Assembly: GCA_020881915.1 (NCBI GenBank)
Contig: JAJFPB010000008.1
Coordinates: 3,451,472-3,515,471, forward strand
Reading direction: 5' to 3'
Length of the DNA stretch: 64,000 nt
From: Paramyrothecium sp. XJ0827
Taxonomy: Eukaryota; Ascomycota; Sordariomycetes; Hypocreales; Stachybotryaceae
The position numbers were made by a program, and so were the translations under genes. Shown here one piece after another: positions 13,377 through 46,346 of the stretch. The notes below the pieces were generated by a model, which was not told the DNA's origin, made no database searches, and worked only from the letters and a program-made list of their open reading frames with translations. Numbering within the stretch: position 1 is the first letter of the stretch; every line of letters begins with the position of its first letter.

Positions 13377-15046
13377 ACCGCTCTTGTTGGAATGGACTTT
13401 CGATTAGTGTTCATTATTCTGGAAGAGCGGGCGAACAATGGAAATAGACAAGAAAGTATGAGGCAGAGGCAGTGAGAATGGATGTAGTCGGCCTATAAGA
13501 CGAGGAGTCGGATGGACAGGGCGTGAGTAAGTGGCTGCCCCGTTACCCCTGAGTCTGTGCATGATGATGAATCCGACGGCATGTCATCCTGCTTCGGCGT
13601 CTCGCTGAAATGACGTGAGCCAGGATGATGAGCCGTCTTCTTTCTCCCAAGCCACACGCCACGTACGCGCTCTAACCCCTTCTTGTGCACCATGGATCAT
13701 GAGCACCATGCCGGATAGGAGGTAGTCTTAGTGGTTCAGGCATTAAGGTCAGACGATCCGCTTGTTGGTTGATCCTCCATGTGCAATTCTGCCTGATGAA
13801 GTCCTACGCACCGGAATTACCGAAGCGGAAATGTTAGATTGATACCTTTCTGTGGATCACATGCCCTGGACTAACGATCGTCGTCGCGCATCGAAACTAA
13901 TCGACTCGTATTCGTCATCATGGACAGACCTGAAGTGTCCAAAAGAAATAGGAGACGCCCCCGAGGCTGTGCCATTACATCCAGGCATGTCATCCTGCTT
14001 CCGCCACGCTGCACCTTGGCCCCTGGATAACACCGTTACATCAAGATATGCCACACTAACCCGAACCCCGTACTGAGTCGGCCTCATCTTATGAGTCAGA
14101 CAACAGCTCACTCCACTTGGACAATACGAACTCCCACGCCAGCAACACAACCGGAGTAGCCGTCGGGCCTCCGATAGAGCCTGATGCTTACACAAGGGAA
14201 GCTGGAGTTAACTGGCGCCATCAACTAATGGAGTTTCAGAACCAGCCACAGGCGGGAAAGCAACTGGCAAAAATACAGTCGAAGAGCCCAAGGACGCTGA
14301 ACTACCCACAATGGGGCCGACATAAACCAAGAGCAAAGCGTCGATAGGGGGGTGGGGGTCGGAAGCACCAGCAGAGAACGACTCGAATATGCTCCTCCGC
14401 AGGAGAGAAACTTTCGATTAAGAGGATGGCACGACTGGATAGGAACGGACTTGACTGTCACGGAAGCAGGTTTGGCTTAGGGAGGAGTTCAAACCTGGAA
14501 CGACTCAGGAAGACGAAGTCAGTTTGATGCTGCCGCCCTCTGATTTCTGGCTCCGCTTCGTAGGCATATAGATTGTGCTTTCGTCTAGTGACGTGTAACG
14601 AAGTCAGCGGTATGTCGCCTTACTGTAGTCTTCGTTGCATCGGGACTGATTACACTCGGACATGTCACCCTAGTTTGGACTAGGTCGGCCTGTTTCCATG
14701 ACCAGGTCGATATGGCCGTCGGACAGGCCGCCTAAGATCCAATAGATGATGATCCTGTGATTGTGTTGGACCTATAGGGGATGGCTTTACATGGGTTCTC
14801 AGGCGAGTTGGCATGAATGATAACAAGGGGTGGGGGGTGGGATTGGGGATTGGGGGTTGCATAGCGGGTGGAGCAGACGATCCTTTTCATTCAGGATTTT
14901 TGCGGGTTCAGGGCTTTGGCTAATGGGCAGGCTGCAACGTTTCTATTCAGGTTTGGGTCAGTCTTGATGTCGGTTCCTACAAAAGACCATGGCTAGCCCT
15001 CCTGTACCAGATGCTCAACTTCTCCTGATTCACCTTTCTCGATGTA
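13377..15046. other. Region without a recognised gene
   Basis: It contains R1 copy 3 and several short frames (13857-14195 minus, 14117-14347 plus) without family resemblance or convincing splice sites. The last 150 bases are the presumed promoter of the H3-tail-like gene. Confidence 0.4.
13581..13685. repeat. Dispersed repeat R1, copy 3 (shorter)
   Basis: It matches copy 2 over its first two blocks ('TTCGGCGTCTCGCTGAAATGAC' region and the 'CACACGCCACGTACGCGCT' region), then diverges at 13686. The segment at 13986-14000 repeats its 'CATGTCATCCTGCTTC' start alone. Confidence 0.6.
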
Positions 15047-15713
15047 ATGGCGCGAACCAAACAGACACCTTGGGCATCAAGAGGCGGCGTGAAAAGTCCT
15101 AAGCGAAACAACATGCTATCAACTGGAGGTAAAGCCGCCCCGCGAGACCTCAAAGTAAGTCGAACCCGTTGATCAGTTTCCTCCTCTAATGTGTAAATAC
15201 CGCATATAGGTTATGGTTGCCGAATCCTCATTCAGGGATTTACTCGAAAGCCTTGAACTAAAAAAACTGCGAGCTCTCAGTGATATCCTCAAAGATCCAG
15301 GCAAACCATCAAAGTCTGTCCAGGAAGAACTCGCTGTTGCACTGAAGGGAATCGACGAGGAACGATATGATGTGAATATCTCCTTCATCTCCGTGCCTGA
15401 GATTCGCAACATATATAGACAAGTCACCACTGAGAAGGAAACGCAAATCGATCCAGGAACGCGCTCTGCACCAGCCAAGGTATCGGAACAGCAAATCACA
15501 GACGAAAGTCGTATTCCAAGAACGAATAGTGTCTGTCGGTATAATACCCGAGGCCGGAAGCGAAAATACGAAATGGCAAAGCCGGGTCAGAAGGGCGAAG
15601 ATGGAGGTAACACAGAGGATGATGACAGTGACGAAGACTTGAAGTTCAAGTTTGGCAAGAGGAGACAAAATGGTTATCTAGACCCACTAGCTCATCATAT
15701 CACCACTGAGTAG
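15047..15713 (+). CDS. Protein with histone H3-tail-like N-terminus
   Basis: Two exons (15047-15154 and 15210-15713; intron GTAAGT...CTAAT...ATAG, phase 0) give 203 aa. After Met the protein begins ARTKQT, identical to H3 residues 1-6 including Arg2, Thr3 and Lys4. Residues 25-30 are STGGKA, identical to H3 10-15, followed by APR (H3 15-17). The H3 Lys9 position is not kept. Residues 37 on are unrelated to the histone fold: a helical region (SSFRDLLESLELKKLRALSD), a linker, a basic RGRKRK stretch suited to nuclear import, and an acidic EDDDSDED run. It is therefore not a histone gene. The likely role is to present an H3-like tail to chromatin readers or modifiers (inference). The adjacent gene has a chromodomain-like end. 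Confidence 0.7.
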
Positions 15714-16016: not shown

Positions 16017-17272
16017 ATGGTTTTTTACCGCGTACTCTATGGCAAGATCACAGCTTCAAGGGCGCCAATCACACATGGGCGGCGCCAACTCAATTTCGTT
16101 ACTACTGATGGAGTGGTTGACCTCACTGAGGATGGTATGGTTCCACTTCCAACACAGTGCAGCAGCCAGCAATATAATAATAGCGCAGCCGGTAATTGTC
16201 GAGGTATGAGCGTATACCATCTCATCCTATGTGCATACTAAATTTGCATAGGGAATCAATTGGCTACATTTGGATTTGAGATGGGATCTAATGCCTCAAT
16301 TTCCTCTCATGATGAGAACCTCTCATCGCGACAGAGTGAGGGACTAAGCACAAACACTGGTACAACTGAACCCTCAGGCTTGAGTAATGATCAGGGACCA
16401 ACTGAGAATTCCAAGCCCGTCAATCCACCATCTCCTCTCGAAGAAAACCACACAAGCCCTTCAAAAAATGCTTCATCCAGCCATTCAACACAACATGTAT
16501 TTCCATCTCGACGGGATACTGCCATGCAGGAAAGTGGGAGACAGAAAACCCTTGATCAATTATTCGGCGAGTCTCACAAATCGGAAGCGGGTCCGAATGC
16601 CTTTCAAATTCAGAGAGATGAACCGACCGACGAGGTTTCAACAGCTCTTACAACGACAACTAGCCAAGAAACTGGCAATGATGCTTCTCCTGAACTTCTA
16701 CCTTCAGCTTCAAAAGGAATGATGAAGCGAGTCCGCCGAGGACGGGCAACTGTAGATAAGGACCCAAATGATATCAGTAAGCAAAGCGTTCCCCTACGAC
16801 TCTACTCTGCTGATTCTTTACAGACCAATCCAGCAAGACAGAGAATGTTGATGGGGCTCTGGCTCATAGACCGAGAAGGCCAGCAAGGGATACCGCTGAC
16901 GGTGAAGTGATGGCAAGCGCAGATCATGACTCTGGCAGATCTATCAGCTTGTCAACTACTGCAACCTTTGCCTCGTCTGAGCAAACGCAAGCAACCGCTG
17001 TTGTCACTGATATGGAGATGGAGTGGGAAATCGACGGCGATCTAATGGGCAGAGAAGTCATTGATGGCGTGGTGCACTACGTGGTTCCTTGGAAACCCTC
17101 TCTTGTGCCGGAGCACCTGATAAATGCCCCTAAACTGATTCGCAAGTTTGAGCGTAAGTTCGGGGCACGAACGAATAAGTCAGTGGGGGCAGCTAGGATT
17201 GCAAAGACAGCGGCTAAGCGCCCGAAGTCAAGGACAGTTAGTAGCAACATAGGGGTGCGGTGTCAGGGTTAG
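16017..17272 (+). CDS. Chromodomain-like protein
   Basis: Three exons fit in phase: 16017-16203, 16252-16776 and 16824-17272 (introns GTATGA...CATAG and GTAAGC...TACAG). The N-terminal two thirds are Ser/Thr/Gln-rich and probably disordered, with a short basic KRVRRGRA run. The last exon holds a chromodomain-like module: EWEIDGDLMGREVIDG, then HYVVPWKPSLVPEHL, then APKLIRKFERKF, in which the aromatic W, Y and W fall where cage residues sit in chromodomains. A basic tail follows. Chromodomains bind methylated lysines on histone tails or RNA (family knowledge). It starts about 300 bp downstream of the H3-tail-like gene on the same strand, hence a possible functional pair. The start codon is uncertain; an in-frame TAA lies 15 codons upstream of this ATG. 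Confidence 0.6.
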
Positions 17273-18451
17273 CCTCGCCAGCAAGAGTTTGAGCCATTAG
17301 GCAACTAGCTATGTAAATATGCGAATTAGGAAGGGCCGTCATTATTCAATTCTCAACACAGAGCTGCCAGAGTCGCAGCGACTATAAGAGGACGTCCGTC
17401 TTGAAGTATGAGCAGTTCGGCAGGGCTAGCATTCCATTCCCGTGCTGTGGTATGGATGCTTAGTGATGAATCGCGTCTTCGGCCCTATGACACACGTTCT
17501 GTCCATCGACTGGACGGTTTCCGCCTTGGGCGAGAATGGAGATTCCTCAACCCACTACTGGACATCCCGCAAGTGCATGATTCTGACTCTTGCCGTTCCC
17601 TCGGCCACTGCACCCCTTCGTCATGAGGTAACCGAGCACCTTCCACCGCCTCTGATGCCGGCGAGGATGGTAAGCATGCGATACATGGAGTCAGCCTAGG
17701 CATACTGATGGATCCAATTATAGCTATAGCGGGGAGTATTAGCTACCGGGGAACTGCTGCTAGGCACAGCTTCGCCGCAAATCCTGACCCTCACTGCCTC
17801 ATCTGTTTCCATAGGAAGCCAGCGAGTTGTATATCCTGATAGGTTCCATCTGCAGGATGGACAATGTGACCATCATGGAGGTCATGCTGGGGTGACAGTA
17901 GTCGCCCTGCTAGACCCAGCCATCATCCTTTATGACACTGTCATCCTCCGCGGCCGAACTACGCCCTGTTGGTACCGTTGCCGTCCGTCAAGGAACCGAC
18001 ACGCAATCCTACTCGGTTTGCGAGGAACTGCTGACACCCTGAACAGCTGACCCGCGCACCCCACGCCCCTTTCCCCAATTACACAACTGGGCAAGGTACC
18101 GCCAAACCAGGGGTCGCCGCGGAGCACGAGCAAGCCCATTTAATCGGTCGCTCGGGTTTTGCCTTGAAGAACGGATCCCTGGCATCCAAGGTGCCTTTTG
18201 AATCCACCCAGGTTCGACTTCCAGGCAGCGAGCGTCCCTGCTAACTCATTTCTCTAGGGCTGTGCCTTTGTCTTGAATTTCCATACCGATACTGTCAGTC
18301 ATCCCTCCCTGCCCCTGATTCCCCCCCCTACGTTCTCCCTCGTCTGATAGCGTCATATTTCCCCGTAACCCTTATTTAGAGGAGCGAAGGTCGTGACTCG
18401 AATCCATTCATCCTCTGCACCAACCTCCTGACTGCAAATCTTTCTGTCAAC
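17273..18451. other. Region without a recognised gene
   Basis: Only short frames without family resemblance. The last 200 bases include C-rich and pyrimidine-rich stretches typical of fungal promoters and lead into the DNA ligase gene. Confidence 0.4.
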
Positions 18452-20728
18452 ATGCCTTTTCCATTCAGCCTGCTTTGCAACCTCCTCGAGGGACTTGAAA
18501 GCAATGCTCTGAGTTCTTCGAGCATCGACCGGATCCAGGAACGCGACGCGCATGCTATTATTGCCTGGTTCAACAAACACAATGCGATTATTCCACGGCG
18601 AGGTCCAGAAGCTGTTGCATTCTTGTCATGTCTCTTTCCCGAACGCAGACCAGACCGGGCCTTTGGTCTGCAAGAAAGACGGCTTAAGGGAATTATACAA
18701 CGCGCACAGGGTATTGGATCATCTAGAATGAAGGACCTGCAGATATGGAAAACCAGTGGCGGTTTAGACTTTGCGTCCTGTGTTGAGCGCGTGATGGTCA
18801 CAACGGACGGCGAACCTAGGGCTGGTCCGGAGCTGACTCTGGAAGAGCTCGATGACGTCCTCGATCAGATTGCAGCCTCATCATCGTTCTCGTCAGCTAG
18901 TGTACGACAAAGTGTCAAAGAGAAGTATGGCCGATCAGCTCATGCGAATTACTTGCTTTCACGAGTATTCCAAGTCCTGCATAGCTCCGAGGCCAAGTGG
19001 ATGATTCGAATGATATTAAAGAGTTACAGTCCAGCTTGCATCCCAGAAAGGCCGACAATGAGTAAATTCCATTTCCTCTTGCCCGACCTCCTTCGTTTCC
19101 AAAATACTATCCCAGCTGCTGTGAGGCTCCTGGACAGACCTACCATCCGGCATATGCCCATCCAGCCAGCGGCGGATGTTCGCTATGAACTGAGGAAAAC
19201 CGCCAACAGAGAGCTTGAACCAAAAGTTGGCATAATGACTGCACGACCGAGCTATGCTAAGGCAAGAAGCATCAGACATTGCTGCCAATTGGCTGGTTCA
19301 AGACGGATGAGTGTGGAGCAGAAGTATGATGGAGAATACTGCCAAGTCCATATCGATGTCAGCAAATCTGGAGCCCGCATCAAGATATTCTCCAAGAGTG
19401 GAAGGGACTCGACCAGCGACCGCAGAGGGATTCATTGCACACTGCGGGACAGCCTCGAACTCGACACTGTAGGCTGCAAGATCAAGAAGCAGTGCATATT
19501 GGAGGGCGAGCTGCTGGTATGGAACGATGACGATGGGAGAATCGAGCCTTTCCACAAAATTCGCAAATATGTGAATCGATCTGGGCGATTTCTTGGAACT
19601 GCTCGAGATTCACCCGTCGACTTGAATGAGCATCTCATGATCATGTTCTACGATATCCTGTTATTGGATGACACTGCCTGCGTCAGAGAGAGCCACGATG
19701 AGCGGCGGCGAGTACTTCAATCTCTGGTTCACTGCATTCCGGGACGGGCCGGCATCGGATCCCGTGAAGTACTTGAATTCTCCTCTTTTGATGCAGCCAA
19801 ACAGCTCAGTGAAGCTTTCGCTCGAGCTATTACGGAACGGTGGGAAGGATTGGTGCTGAAGGGCTGTGACAATCCTTACCTCTCATCCGAGGAGGACAGG
19901 TCCTTTATCAAACTTAAGAAAGATTACATTCCAGGCCTTGGTGACACTGCCGACTTCGTCATTGTTGGGGGACACCGGGACGCAGGAGATGCGCAAGAGC
20001 TTCGAATTGGTAAGCTATGGTGGACATCATTTTACATTGGATGCATGGAAAATAAGGATGAGGTCTGCCGCTATAATGGAAAGCCGAGATTTCGCATTAT
20101 CGATGTCATCGACAAGCACGGCATCTCGAAAGAGGACCTCATATACCTCAACCGCCATGGATACTTCAGACGAGTGCCTTTTGCCGAGGTTGTACCCGAG
20201 TTTGACGTCGCATTCGACCCGGGACGGAGACTGCAGCCAGTTGATCTCTTCAGAGAGCCGTTTACGGTAGAAGTGGTCGGTGCTGGCTTCGCAAAGCCTG
20301 CGAACGCTCGGTATTATACTCCGCGGTTTCCACGAGTGTTGAAGGTCCATAGCGATCGATCGTTCAGGGATACCATCAGCTTTAAAGAGTTGCAGGAGAT
20401 GGCTAAAAGATGCCTCGATATACCGGATGATCAGGAACAAGAAGAGCGAAGCTGGTTTAGAAGATTGCAAGGCTATGAGCAGGAGGTTGAAAGGTCGAGG
20501 ACAAGCTCTCCCAGCGACGGCTCGGTTTCTGTCCCAGATGTTTATGGGGGCAGGCAAAGCACCCGACAACAGGAAAATGTGGAAACGGCGATTGGGACCC
20601 TGTGCGCAGAAAATATTTCCCCGCCTTCATCAAAGCGGAAGATGGCTTTGGAGTTCTTGCATGACGACTCAACTTTTAAGCGAGCCAAACGAGACGGGAA
20701 TACGACGATTCGAAATAGCAGTCTCTAG
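18452..20728 (+). CDS. ATP-dependent DNA ligase (fungal accessory type)
   Basis: Uninterrupted 758-aa gene. It is expected to seal DNA nicks using ATP, through a ligase-adenylate on Lys291. Residues 1-230 correspond to the helical DNA-binding N-terminal domain of eukaryotic ligases. The nucleotidyltransferase core follows: motif I EQKYDGEY (K291), motif III LEGELLVW (about 350-357), IIIa MFYDILLLDD (398-407), motif IV EGLVLKG (465-471), motif V FIKLKKDY (485-492). An OB-fold-like region follows to about 660, then a disordered tail. There is no BRCT domain, which separates it from true ligase IV although the core is closest to that class (my judgement). It lies among repeats but is free of frameshifts, which argues for selection. 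Likely nuclear; the KR-rich tail supports that. Confidence 0.85.
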   Translation: MPFPFSLLCNLLEGLESNALSSSSIDRIQERDAHAIIAWFNKHNAIIPRRGPEAVAFLSCLFPERRPDRAFGLQERRLKGIIQRAQGIGSSRMKDLQIWKTSGGLDFASCVERVMVTTDGEPRAGPELTLEELDDVLDQIAASSSFSSASVRQSVKEKYGRSAHANYLLSRVFQVLHSSEAKWMIRMILKSYSPACIPERPTMSKFHFLLPDLLRFQNTIPAAVRLLDRPTIRHMPIQPAADVRYELRKTANRELEPKVGIMTARPSYAKARSIRHCCQLAGSRRMSVEQKYDGEYCQVHIDVSKSGARIKIFSKSGRDSTSDRRGIHCTLRDSLELDTVGCKIKKQCILEGELLVWNDDDGRIEPFHKIRKYVNRSGRFLGTARDSPVDLNEHLMIMFYDILLLDDTACVRESHDERRRVLQSLVHCIPGRAGIGSREVLEFSSFDAAKQLSEAFARAITERWEGLVLKGCDNPYLSSEEDRSFIKLKKDYIPGLGDTADFVIVGGHRDAGDAQELRIGKLWWTSFYIGCMENKDEVCRYNGKPRFRIIDVIDKHGISKEDLIYLNRHGYFRRVPFAEVVPEFDVAFDPGRRLQPVDLFREPFTVEVVGAGFAKPANARYYTPRFPRVLKVHSDRSFRDTISFKELQEMAKRCLDIPDDQEQEERSWFRRLQGYEQEVERSRTSSPSDGSVSVPDVYGGRQSTRQQENVETAIGTLCAENISPPSSKRKMALEFLHDDSTFKRAKRDGNTTIRNSSL

Positions 20729-26936: not shown

Positions 26937-29601
26937 TTAATCACCTGTTGGAGTAGGTGTTTCCCTATTGACATTTTGGCCACCAGAATTGACCTGTGAA
27001 CTTTCAGCTGGGGGTTCTCTCAACCGTTTAGTTCCTGCATCGAGATAGCTGACATCCACTTGGCCTTTTTCGTTATTAGCGAAGTATTGGAATCCCCTTT
27101 TATGCCCGACCCTCCATCCTGGATACAGCAATACAATGCGACTTCCGTTGGACATCACCGTTTCGTAGCAGGTTTTGGGTGTTACTTGTCGATTGTTAAA
27201 GTCGAAGACACCTATGCCTTGCTTCAGGTAATCTTCGCATTTTCTTTGGACCCTTGAAGGTTCTCTTGGGTCAATGTAGATTTCATGTGCCAAAGCCCAG
27301 TGGTTTTGATTCCAATGAAGGAAACCGATGCGAACGTTTTGAGTTGCTGCCATTTGCAGTTCAAGTGCTTGGCTTTTTGATTGCTCCGCAGACTGCGACT
27401 TCAGCGAGTCCACCTCTTCGCGCAATGTTTCTGCCTGTTTTTGGGCCTCAGCAATCTCTCCTGCTTTTTTTTCTAACTCCTCTTCTAGACGCTTCAACTT
27501 GACCTCATTTTCTCGTTGTTCCATCGAATTTGCGTCGATGCTTGTTCTGTGTTCTTGAGTCTTACTACTAGTCAGCGGTTCACGATGGGCGGCTTGAGCA
27601 GCTTGAAGTTCGGGCTCTATGTGCTGTTGACTATTTCCTATCGGAGTTGGCAAAGTTCCAGGATATGAATCGGATCCAGTCGTCTGTTCTCCTAACGAAT
27701 GAAGGGATTCATCTCCCGCCTCAACATTCATGTCAAAATCAAATGTTGGACCTTTGCCAAAAAAGAAAAAAAAAAGGGATCTCTGTATGAAAAAAGATGA
27801 TAGTGATGTCTGTTTGGCGATTGGCTGTTGAAGTTTCGTCAAATACATCGATGACTTGTCTCGAAGTTGATCAGCATCGTTGAGGCCACCACATCTATTT
27901 GGCGGTTTCTCTGGCAGGAGTGCGTCCGCGTCGGCCATGTTTTCATCGCCTCTTTTCTCCCCTTCCAACAACTCTGCCTCCCGTATTATCTCCACAACTC
28001 GGTTTACGCAACCGTCAATGTCCTTATACCTGTACTCCCCGGGATCTCTGGCTGTTCGGAGGAGCCGGTTGGCTATTTCTCTGTCTGGATCCTTTCCGAG
28101 AATATCACGAATCTCATCGGTCGCAAATCCTAGCCTATCTGCCAACAGCGCGAAATCATACAACACTCTCTCATTTGCATCACCACCATTGTACATCGCC
28201 AGCTTTGGAATTATTTTCTTTGGCATTTCGCGGTAGTCTCGTATCGCGTTCAGCCACAATTGTTTGTATGAAATTTCAAAACGCTCGTCGGCATGGATGA
28301 AGAAGAGTGTGTTCCTGGAATCTTGGACCAAGCAACTCCTTGTATCTAAGCCTGGATCCGAAAACTTATTCTCAAAAGCCTGGTATATAGACAAGCCCCT
28401 TCTCCGCGGTACTAAGCGTTTCATGCAGTCTGCTGGACGCTCCAAATATTTCAAGTTTTCAAAGAAAGCATATAGTGAAGGAACCAAGCAATCAGTAGTG
28501 GAAGAGCATATTTTCTCCCATATCTTTTCTCTTTCGTGTGGACTAAAGGCACCTAGGACTTTCCCCGATTTTATTTGACCGTCCAGAATGTAAAAGTCCT
28601 GCTCGCAGGCTCCTGGCGCAGTGAGTTGCAGCGTCTCAATATCTGATCTTGTAAACCGCTGCAACTTGCTTATATCTTCGTCGCAAATATTTTCGTAAAA
28701 TTTCTTAATGAACTCCAATGCATGCAGAATTTCCTAGCACAATTAGAAAAAAAAAATCAAAGCTTGTTTATGTAACGTGACTTTTACCTCTTCACACCTC
28801 ATGGACATCATTTTATTTAAAGTGCTAATCCGCATGCCCCCATAAAGAGCTGGAATATGCTTAAATTCATCGAACGCGGCAGCAAACGTCTCGTGGCCGA
28901 AGAGTTGTTGAAGCCGTCGTTTCCTATTGCTCGAATCGGAGATGGCGGCCAGTCTCCCCCACCATCGTTTCAAAAAGTATGGATTCCTTTGTCCAAAGTG
29001 ACCCTGATACTCTCGTATTCTGTAGTAGAATTCACCGTCATCCGGTTCCTTTTCGTTCGCATATTCCTCGATGAGCGTAGACTTCAGCTGAGGAGTAATG
29101 CCTTTCCATTATGTAAGTGTATGCGTCGGTTCACTAGCGCCAAAACCTACCTGCAGGATACAAATCCACTGTCCACCAATGGTCACAGTCAGGAAGAGTT
29201 TGTCTTGCTGCTTCTACTCGATGGCGCCCTCGAAGGCATTCCAGGCGAAAGCCTGAAGGAAACTCAATTTGAGGAAAGTCCGCGGCAGAACTGTCTAATA
29301 ACCGGTTTGCAGATATCCCTGACTCATTTAGGTACTGCTGCAATCGGCTCTCGTCGACCACAGCAGGTATGCGATTCGCAACGTCGTCAGGTCTACACCC
29401 GCCTTCTTCACGGAACAGACGCTTGAGGCGATCAATATTGGTTTTCTTCAACTCCTTGATTTGTTTCGAATGTGGAAAATACAAGGAACCAAATCTAATT
29501 CTCACAGTCCCAAGGTGCTTGAGGGACCTCTCTTTCTCAATGCGTTGGGCTAAAGTCGCAGACTTGGTTCGAGACATCCTCACGTTGGTAGCCTCCTGCA
29601 A
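26937..29601 (-). CDS. DUF3723-family protein
   Basis: DUF3723 is a fungal accessory family of unknown biochemical role, often found as cargo of Starship transposons (family knowledge). Three exons: 29601-29134; about 29095-28789, with EEYANEKEPDDGEFYYRIR, FLKRWWGRL and IPALYGGMRISTLNKMM; and 28737-26937. Introns have GTAGGT and GTAAAA donors. The first exon contains RLECLRGRHRVEAAR, typical of the family's N-terminal part. After about residue 560 come a Gln/Ser-rich linker and a coiled coil (KLKRLEEELEKKAGEIAEA). No frameshift is seen. The start could equally be the Met eight codons later (MSRTKSAT). A Phe-rich run near 27760 may be an unspliced intron. Same strand as the captain at 43.7-46.3 kb. 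Confidence 0.8.
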
Positions 29602-43708: not shown

Positions 43709-46346
43709 CTAGTTTGTTACCATCGAGGCTGGATAATGGTCTCCATGCTCCCGAGCTGCATGGTTCGCAAAGTGCTCGTCTGTTCCAATAATTGCCTCAC
43801 ACCTATCATATGGACAGCGAAACGGCATCTCAATCGTCGCAAGATGCCGAGAACGAATATGTCTTGCCAGGCTATCAATACGCCACTGCTTCTGGCGCTG
43901 TTCATTTCCAACTTCCATGTCTCGCCATTTGCAGAAAGGACACGTTCGCGAAACAACTGAAGATTTCGATTGAGACGGTGCTGCTTGTGCGCCGACATCG
44001 ACTTCTGTCTTCTCTTCCAATCTTGTATGAGGGATAGTGTTGGCCTTATGTTGTATCGCTCGCGTTGAGGCAGTTATGACAGCTTTTGTAGACTTGGGTG
44101 CTTTAAGTCGACGCGGACTCTCTCGCCTCTGACATAGCTGTGATAGAGCGTGGACAAGTTTCATCCGTAGTTTGAAAAGTTCCTCTCTGTTGCTGATATG
44201 TGCTGCATCGGAGAACAGGTGAGCTACTTGGGCTCTTTCTTCGAGCTCATATTTGATTGTTGGGGGTGCTAAGGTTTCTCTGGATGGAGTTATCCCCTTT
44301 AATTGCTGGGCGATTTCCTCTCCGTGTATCTTTTGGTGGAAGTCTGCGATGGCACGTGTTAGACGTTTTGCTTTTAATGTTTTTCTGAGGCTGTCCACTC
44401 TCTTTCGGTACTTTTCATACCGCTTGCCAACACCAGCTTTTTTAGCATCTGTATAAGACTTGTAACCCTTCTTTTTGAACTTTTCGAGTTCCTTGGACCT
44501 TAACCTGAGAAATCTGACTAGGATTGGGTCTTTGTAAATCTCCCTCTCCTGTTCTTCGGTCAGTTGTTTTGGAGCATTCCCATGACGTATGAGTCGGCCC
44601 ATCAAATTGACAAGATCTGTCTGCAGGTTGCTTCCGAATACAATAGCCTGAGTGTCTGTACCGACGAAATCTGTCATGTAATACCGCACATAAGTAGATG
44701 AATCGCCAAGTCTATGATTCATAGCTTGGTTCCTTTCCTCAGGGGTCAGTGCCTCTACAAACAATTAGCGATGTCCGCCTGCAAATTCTCTCGTCGTACC
44801 GTTCAGCATCTTGCCAGATCCACGACGAATATCGTAAAACTCTAGTCTTTTCTCATACCCAAGGGCTAGCCCAAGTCGAATTAAATCATTTCGGGTCTTG
44901 CTGTATGTGAGAGCTTTCTCAAGTGATATTTTTAGCCCTTCTAAATTGCGAAAAATGGGTCGCGACTCCCATTCCTTTTTCCACGGTAGTCTCACTCGGT
45001 CCATGTGAGCCGGAACCTTAAGTTCATAAATCTGTTCTGGACTTGTGAAGTCGTTTAGAAATGCGCCGTCGGCAAATGCTAGAGACAGCATATGGAGTAT
45101 CGGATCATGCAGGAGAGTGTCTTCCTCGTGAAAGCCGAATTTGAGGATTTTAGATGTACCCGCTGACTTCTTCACATTCACAAGGTTGAATAAAAGTCCA
45201 AGGCGTGGACGCTTTTCTCCAGGACTCGGTCGGAAAAGCTGAAATTCGATGTCCCTATAAAGCACTTTTCCAATAAGTGCATCGGGTCTAGTTGCAGTCG
45301 CGCCAGCCACTATTAGGATTAGGGCAAGCTGTACACGAAGTCTTTCGTGAGCGAACACGAAATCGTCTTGAACATAGTGATGATGAAGAATCAAGTCTAG
45401 ATCTTCGATAAATAATCCAGACTTGTCCTTCTTTGATGTGTCCAGGTCGAACAAAGGTGTAAGTTTAGCATGGATCCACTTGAGAAAGCTATTTAGAATC
45501 CGTCCAAATACCAAACACACCAAGGGATGAGGACTAACATTACCTATATCATAGAGGACGCCCCCTTCCATCCATCGAGCTGTTTTGACAGCATAAACCA
45601 TACTAAGAACATTCCAATAGGTCATAATGGATGATTCTTTTTTAATTCGAGAGTTTTTCACTCTCCAGTATAGGTATGCTTTGAATATAGATGCTTTGCA
45701 TGCCCTGAGGGCCTCAATAGGATCTCGTCGAGTTGTTTTACAGAAGCTGTTAGGGAAGTGGTTAGGTCGAATTGACATCTTAGCTGAAAGATAAAACAGA
45801 CCTATTCCACCTTGCTTCTTCAGGAACCGTCATTCGTCTTGTGTTCTCGTCATGATTGGCCATCGTCGGCCCTTCTTCTTCGAATTGATCGATCAATCCA
45901 TTATAAAACTCTGCTGCCTCTTTTGGGTCCTCCTCGGCGCTGGCATACCCAGAGTCTAAGTCAGAAATTGAAGAGGAGTCCGGGTCGTGATCTGAATCCG
46001 AATCAGAATCACTATCAGATTCCGGAGCTTCATCGCTATTAACTTTATCGTTCGAGATAAGCGAGTTCTTTCGAGTCATTGTAGCGCAGGAACGAACAGG
46101 GTTTGAGGAATTTCGGAAAGAGACCCCATGTTGCTTTCCGTCCTCAAAGTCCAGAGTGCTGCTATTCGAAGGCTCAGATGCCACGGCGAAGTCTTGTTCA
46201 TATGCTATAACTGTGTTACTCGAGGGAATTTGAGTATGATTGCAGCTGCCTTGTGCAGGCGCCGAGATGTCCTGTGTGGATGCTCCGAGCCGAGGTATGT
46301 TTCGTCTCTGCCTCGCTCTTCTAGGAATGTTGCGGGTTCGAGCCAT
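43709..46346 (-). CDS. DUF3435 tyrosine recombinase ('captain' of a Starship element)
   Basis: Site-specific recombinase of the family that mobilises Starship giant transposons (family knowledge). Exon 1 (46346 to about 45800) is acidic with Asp/Ser repeats. Exon 2 (45778-44800) has FKAYLYWRVKNSRIKKESSI, TYWNVLSMVYA and the ATRPDAL box, ending at YDIRRGSGKMLN. Exon 3 (44754-43709) resumes EALTPEERNQAMNHRLGD and STYVRYYM, with the expected Arg, His/Arg and Tyr positions, then a Lys/Arg-rich helix and two C2H2-like fingers (CPFC...H...H and CPYDRC...H...H). The 45-nt intron 44799-44755 (GTACGA, GCTAAT, TTGTAG) removes an in-frame TAA and restores the family sequence. The exon 1-2 junction is unresolved. 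Length about 850 aa. No coding damage seen. Confidence 0.85.

Follow-up and report, generated by a model that had tools for sequence, protein, structure and literature searches.

A possible histone H3-tail mimic at the start of an apparently lineage-specific fungal protein, and an H3-like N-terminus in an unrelated ABM-domain family

The locus studied here raises the question of whether a fungal protein that is not a histone carries an imitation of the histone H3 tail at its N-terminus. The window, i.e., the whole stretch of 64,000 nucleotides that was analyzed, corresponds to positions 3451472-3515471 of contig C14 of Paramyrothecium sp. XJ0827 (genome size 51.8 Mb, 15 contigs), and its right edge coincides with the contig end. 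On the plus strand, an ATG at 15047 opens a first exon of 36 codons (15047-15154) encoding the H3-tail-like peptide MARTKQTPWASRGGVKSPKRNNMLSTGGKAAPRDLK, which is spliced across a 55-base GT-AG intron (15155-15209; GTAAGT ... ATATAG) to a second exon of 167 codons plus stop (15210-15713), giving a predicted in-frame protein of 203 aa. The ATG, the splice donor GTAAGT at 15155 and the acceptor AG ending at 15209 are all conserved in two further copies of the gene (C4 and C14a, located below), and a 1-base indel between copies lies inside the intron. The sequence-only reading had proposed this spliced protein, with its ARTKQT start and without a histone fold; the exact ATG, donor, acceptor and stop were re-found in the sequence, and Pfam gave nothing for the 203-aa protein at E<=1.

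No relative of the predicted protein was found among 5.8 billion proteins, including those of many fungi (0 of 257 candidates at E<=10), and there was no match at E<=10 among 177,635 distinct PDB sequences; Pfam also gave nothing at E<=10 for exon 2 or for the exon-1 peptide of the C4 copy. Modelled on its own from single-sequence input, exon 2 yields a predicted four-helix domain of 82 aa (15213-15458, plus strand), for which the best of five models reaches a pLDDT of 84.5 and a pTM of 0.71, the other four lying at pLDDT 44.5-50.7. No histone fold is seen, in that there is no Pfam match and the model consists of four helices of 11-19 residues each. The two top Foldseek matches of the helical domain are the PIAS-1 N-terminal domain (E 1.6), itself a SAP domain, and that of a rice SUMO E3 ligase (E 3.5); these matches are not significant, and a SAP-like fold for the modelled domain is thus only a lead. 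The remainder of the exon 2 product is modelled with low confidence and without regular structure, including an acidic-then-basic tail (EDDDSDED...KFGKRR, 15615-15665, plus strand) that was recognized by eye, as was a basic stretch ahead of it that may be a nuclear localisation signal (RGRKRKYE, 15549-15572, plus strand).

The H3 likeness resides in exon 1. Immediately past the initiator Met, ARTKQT (15050-15067; residues 2-7 with Met = 1) is identical to H3 1-6, and it is the only exact block with respect to the H3 tail ARTKQTARKSTGGKAPRK, followed by R8 (W in the window), S10, G12 and G13. The latter correspond to WASRGG in the window (15071-15088) and RASRGG in two other copies, aligned to H3 R8-K9-S10-T11-G12-G13; R8, S10, G12 and G13 are in register with H3 in copies C4 and C14a, and the C4 N-terminus, with Arg at the R8 place where the window copy has Trp, is nearer to H3 than that of the window (MARTKQTPRASRGG versus H3 MARTKQTARKSTGG). 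Farther on, STGGKAAPR (15119-15145; residues 25-33 with Met = 1) equals H3 10-17 (STGGKAPR, the Lys14 context) plus one additional Ala. It also resembles H3 31-36 (STGGVK), on which the best alignment of C14a sets this second block, so that STGGKAAPR may correspond to either segment. Of the two exact H3 matches originally claimed, then, ARTKQT stands as exact, whereas STGGKAAPR has an extra Ala and a possible counterpart in H3 31-36; the loss of the Lys9 context was borne out, an Ala occupying the Lys9 place in all three exon-1 copies.

That such a resemblance should arise by chance is unlikely, as the earlier reading held, because MARTKQT, searched as a degenerate DNA pattern over the whole genome, is readable at five sites, as against 0.048 expected with equal base frequencies, and a reversed-pattern control gave 0. 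One of the five is histone H3 (on C12), another is an unrelated gene on C8, and the remaining three are copies of the window gene; a relaxed pattern (MARTKQ, a free codon, and a codon with middle C) returns the identical five. TGGKAxPR occurs genome-wide in the three copies only and TGGKAPR in H3 only, with about 0.4 sites expected for each, and the chance of both motifs falling in frame within 40 codons is about 1e-8 under equal base frequencies. Shuffle tests against H3 1-45 plus Met agree: the score of the exon-1 peptide was reached by 2 of 20,000 shuffles for the window and by 0 of 20,000 each for C4 and C14a, while the signal is weaker for the peptide past MARTKQT by itself, whose score was reached by 385, 689 and 464 of 20,000 shuffles in the three copies. 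In a phmmer search of the C4 exon-1 peptide against the 177,635 PDB sequences, H3 is the top match, aligned M1 on M1. Pure coincidence can draw on the fact that the resemblance was picked by eye, and on this same search, where the E-value of H3 is only 0.22 and the unrelated ribosomal protein eL29 comes third with a close score (E=0.61); set against the 0.048 expected sites and the figure of about 1e-8, it is highly improbable. An H3-like peptide thus stands, above chance, at the very N-terminus of a predicted non-histone protein. As a further control on a small set, neither ARTKQT nor TGGKAPR was found in the 120 ligase homologues listed.

Four copies of the gene were identified: that of the window, C4 (C4:691561-692233, minus strand), C14a (C14:3296459-3297132, minus strand) and C14b (C14:3329693-3330230, plus strand). 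The copies other than the window's are found in duplicated DNA, one on the 1.0-Mb contig C4 and two in the terminal 220 kb or so at one end of C14. These duplications are mosaic, C14a and C4 sharing about 4.5 kb downstream at 98% identity and C14a sharing also, piecewise, the upstream region of the window gene. The C4 copy encodes MARTKQTPRASRGGVESPKRDNMQSTGGKAAPRDLK and is open for 187 aa, ending 15 codons ahead of the window's stop; the three other copies all have their stop at the codon matching 15666-15668. In C14a, exon 1 has lost 9 bases in frame and exon 2 is broken by a 4-base insertion; C14b is devoid of exon 1. At positions 14258-14640, the window has about 384 bases that neither C4 nor C14a shows at the equivalent place; a few bases are repeated at the junction, and the stretch resembles a small insertion.

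Comparison of the copies gave no sign of purifying selection, either in dN/dS or in exon versus upstream divergence, and no sign of positive selection passing a test. Counting only codons ahead of the other copies' stop, window and C4 differ by 22 nonsynonymous and 5 synonymous changes (8, 12 and 7 differences at codon positions 1, 2 and 3), a dN/dS of 1.32 that rests on few sites (P=0.81); the ratio is 1.98 for window versus C14a and 1.23 for window versus C14b exon 2. Divergence between window and C4 amounts to 5.1% in exon 2 (to the shared stop), 4.6% in exon 1, 11% in the intron and 2.8% in upstream DNA, and nonsynonymous compared with upstream change gives P=0.11. The five substitutions and the 9-base deletion of exon 1 all fall outside both H3-like blocks, with P of about 0.03 if events are even and with the blocks chosen after H3 was known; given the little divergence, this sparing is suggestive at best of selection on the motif.

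The gene lies in DNA that also carries integrase-type, DUF3435 and DUF3723 genes, close to the contig end. With regard to a possible role as Starship cargo, the DUF3435 gene (43709-45829, minus strand), which is Starship captain-like, has an in-frame stop between its halves near 44764; the DUF3723 gene lies at 26937-28733 (minus strand). These surroundings, the duplicated copies and an H3 likeness beyond chance fit the proposal of the sequence-only reading that a mimic is carried by mobile or accessory DNA, whereas two broken copies out of four and exons that evolve no slower than upstream DNA count against a function.

Other features of the region were also recorded. Directly downstream, at 16017-17273 (plus strand), lies an apparent three-exon gene of 386 aa whose C-terminal part is chromodomain-like by eye, with no match in Pfam. 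A DNA ligase IV-like gene is located at 18380-20728 (plus strand), the product of which has its nearest named relative in Stachybotrys elegans (86% identity); among the matches listed, Dactylonectria macrodidyma and Stachybotrys chartarum each have several distinct relatives, which suggests that this ligase may have been amplified. GC content falls sharply to about 20-37% between 47 and 56 kb of the window, a strong G-over-C skew (up to 0.6) extends from there to the contig end (64000), and a helicase-like frame is visible by eye near 59-60 kb. On the 1.0-Mb contig, a divergent gene of the H3 fold is present in two almost identical copies (C4:24170-24519 and C4:489751-490097, both minus strand); it is 75-76% identical to H3 across residues 34-132 and has a different long N-terminal frame in place of the H3 tail.

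The MARTKQT site on C8 belongs to a gene (L047, C8:685917-686858) whose product begins MARTKQTAKRYGKP and has a body unrelated to the window protein. It shows a weak Pfam match to the ABM domain (E 0.0026; 18.3 bits versus a cut-off of 23.1), a domain that was not found behind the MARTKQT start of the window gene (Pfam at E<=10 for C4 exon 2 and at E<=1 for the window protein). A threshold of E<=0.001 gives 63 relatives (P0121-P0183), the named ones belonging presumably to Pezizomycotina genera. Among these 64 sequences (the 63 and the C8 protein), 44 were judged N-terminally intact, two of which (P0143 and P0177) appear truncated and were nevertheless counted; MARTKQTA is found in 16, MARTKQTAR in 10 and MARTKQTARK in 2, one of these being MARTKQTARKS. 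The position-by-position consensus start, MARTKQTARRS, equals H3 1-8 but not H3 at residue 9: the most frequent residue there is Arg (20/44), and Lys occurs in 5/44. The same genome encodes a second, divergent member, on the minus strand near C8:4204826, whose start is MARTRKTAR. In the literature searched, no description was found of a near-H3 N-terminus as the consensus of a fungal ABM family.

A tree of this family was built without the N-terminal part from 45 sequences, P0124 being added after trimming to its internal MARTKQT Met and 19 of the 64 being omitted as incomplete. MARTKQ opens 21 of the 45 sequences, in several genera, and the other 24 start differently, among them the Stachybotrys elegans sequence (MARAKTIR) and that of Clonostachys (MARLKERS), which is sister to C8 in this tree, both without the motif. 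The motif label requires 12 changes versus 15 when shuffled, 38 of 500 shuffles being as low, so that the motif is weakly clustered; the most distant clade on the midpoint-rooted tree includes the motif carriers P0158 and P0165. We read the H3-like N-terminus as a probable ancestral trait of the family that would then have drifted repeatedly, repeated gain being a conceivable alternative. The sequence-only reading did not foresee an unrelated ABM family with a similar N-terminus. The existence of this family raises the overall credibility of H3-tail mimicry in fungi, and its consensus N-terminus is a stronger lead than the window gene.

How, then, is the start of the window protein best explained? 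We tentatively favor, with a probability of about 0.4, the reading that this gene is a lineage-specific, possibly decaying N-terminal mimic of the H3 tail. Its main non-functional rival, which we consider rather unlikely, is that an H3-like first exon, original or acquired by exon capture, is drifting functionless. The breakage of two of the four copies (one frameshifted, one lacking exon 1), the exon conservation not above that of upstream DNA, a dN/dS not below 1, the premature stop of the other three copies relative to the window and the lack of relatives in the protein search all point that way, but ARTKQT and STGGKAAPR are unaltered in all three copies having exon 1, and the four indels that separate these copies within exons before the shared stop measure 9, 3 and 3 bases versus only one of 4, i.e., three are divisible by three.

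The main functional rival is that exon 1 would be a cargo signal for Kap123/importin-4, an H3-type nuclear import signal instead of a decoy for chromatin readers. H3 1-28 is described as a Kap123 signal, with Lys14 critical and K9Q tolerated (PMC5677370), and the retention of the Lys14 context in STGGKA together with the loss of Lys9 fits that description. An import signal nevertheless does not account for an exact ARTKQT right at the start of the window protein and of the ABM proteins alike; the ABM N-termini are without the Lys14 block, and the separate basic stretch seen by eye could serve for import instead. We consider this explanation unlikely. Still more doubtful is a wrong gene model, in which the real transcript would be devoid of exon 1 and the H3-like frame incidental. 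Exon 1 and its splice are predicted from the sequence, and the window's exon 2 has an ATG of its own at the second codon; however, this ATG is replaced by Ile in the other three copies, which leaves C4 exon 2 without a nearby start unless exon 1 is used. About 45 codons of C4 exon 2 precede its first Met, so that translation must begin in exon 1 and pass through the GT-AG intron, with donor and acceptor conserved in C4 and C14a, or else the domain is cut.

Under the favored reading, i.e., a mimic of the H3 tail, the predicted protein looks nuclear; its residues 1-36 would imitate the H3 tail, with a small helical domain and an acidic/basic tail making up the rest. The N-terminal end of H3 is a docking site of PHD fingers, the LSD1/KDM1 cleft and Set1, and a free N-terminal alanine is needed by H3 readers; since Met-Ala starts are normally trimmed, such an alanine is expected here, and Met removal would expose a free Ala1-Arg2-Thr3-Lys4-Gln5-Thr6. 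The protein may then bind, and so occupy or recruit in trans, an H3-N-terminus-binding factor in a SNAG-like manner, with the helical domain setting where it would act. The gene family is duplicated in what looks like accessory genome and may by now be in decay. This chromatin-mimic reading of the window gene is plausible but unproven.

It is also possible, and we advance it tentatively, that filamentous fungi use a recurrent device in which unrelated proteins starting NH2-ARTKQTAR... compete with or recruit the readers, erasers and writers of the H3 N-terminus, the window gene being a young, accessory instance and the ABM family an old, widespread one. If true, an ABM consensus equal to H3 1-8 together with a separate multi-copy gene would mean that fungi regulate or contest chromatin by decoy tails, and antibodies to the H3 N-terminus or to H3K4 methylation might pick up non-histone proteins in such fungi.

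H3-tail mimicry is already known from animal repressors and viruses, and systems such as SNAG and NS1 support the idea that a peptide of this kind can act. The likeness of SNAG to H3 is loose. The SNAG domain of GFI1 is described as an N-terminal H3 mimic that occupies LSD1, and GFI1/SNAI1-type repressors share with the window protein a short N-terminal peptide imitating H3 (PMC5896174); they differ in being animal transcription repressors, whereas here the first six residues are exactly those of H3, on a predicted fungal protein without a Pfam domain. Influenza NS1 is reported to use an H3-like tail and likewise bears an H3-tail-like stretch on a non-histone protein (PMC12937675), but at the C-terminus of a viral protein rather than at the N-terminus of one encoded in a fungal genome. 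EZHIP, too, is described as a protein that acts on a chromatin enzyme by imitating a portion of H3 (PMC6513997); its action is like that of the K27M region, whereas the window protein resembles H3 1-17. With histone H3 itself the window protein shares residues 1-6 and parts of 8-17, while in place of a histone-fold match it has one small predicted helical domain. The fungal ABM family (C8:685917, P0121, P0126, P0149 and others) also has an H3-like start right behind the Met and no histone fold, with one member in the same genome as the window gene, but it has an unrelated body, spans many fungal genera, and resembles H3 over about residues 1-10 only, without an STGGKA block.
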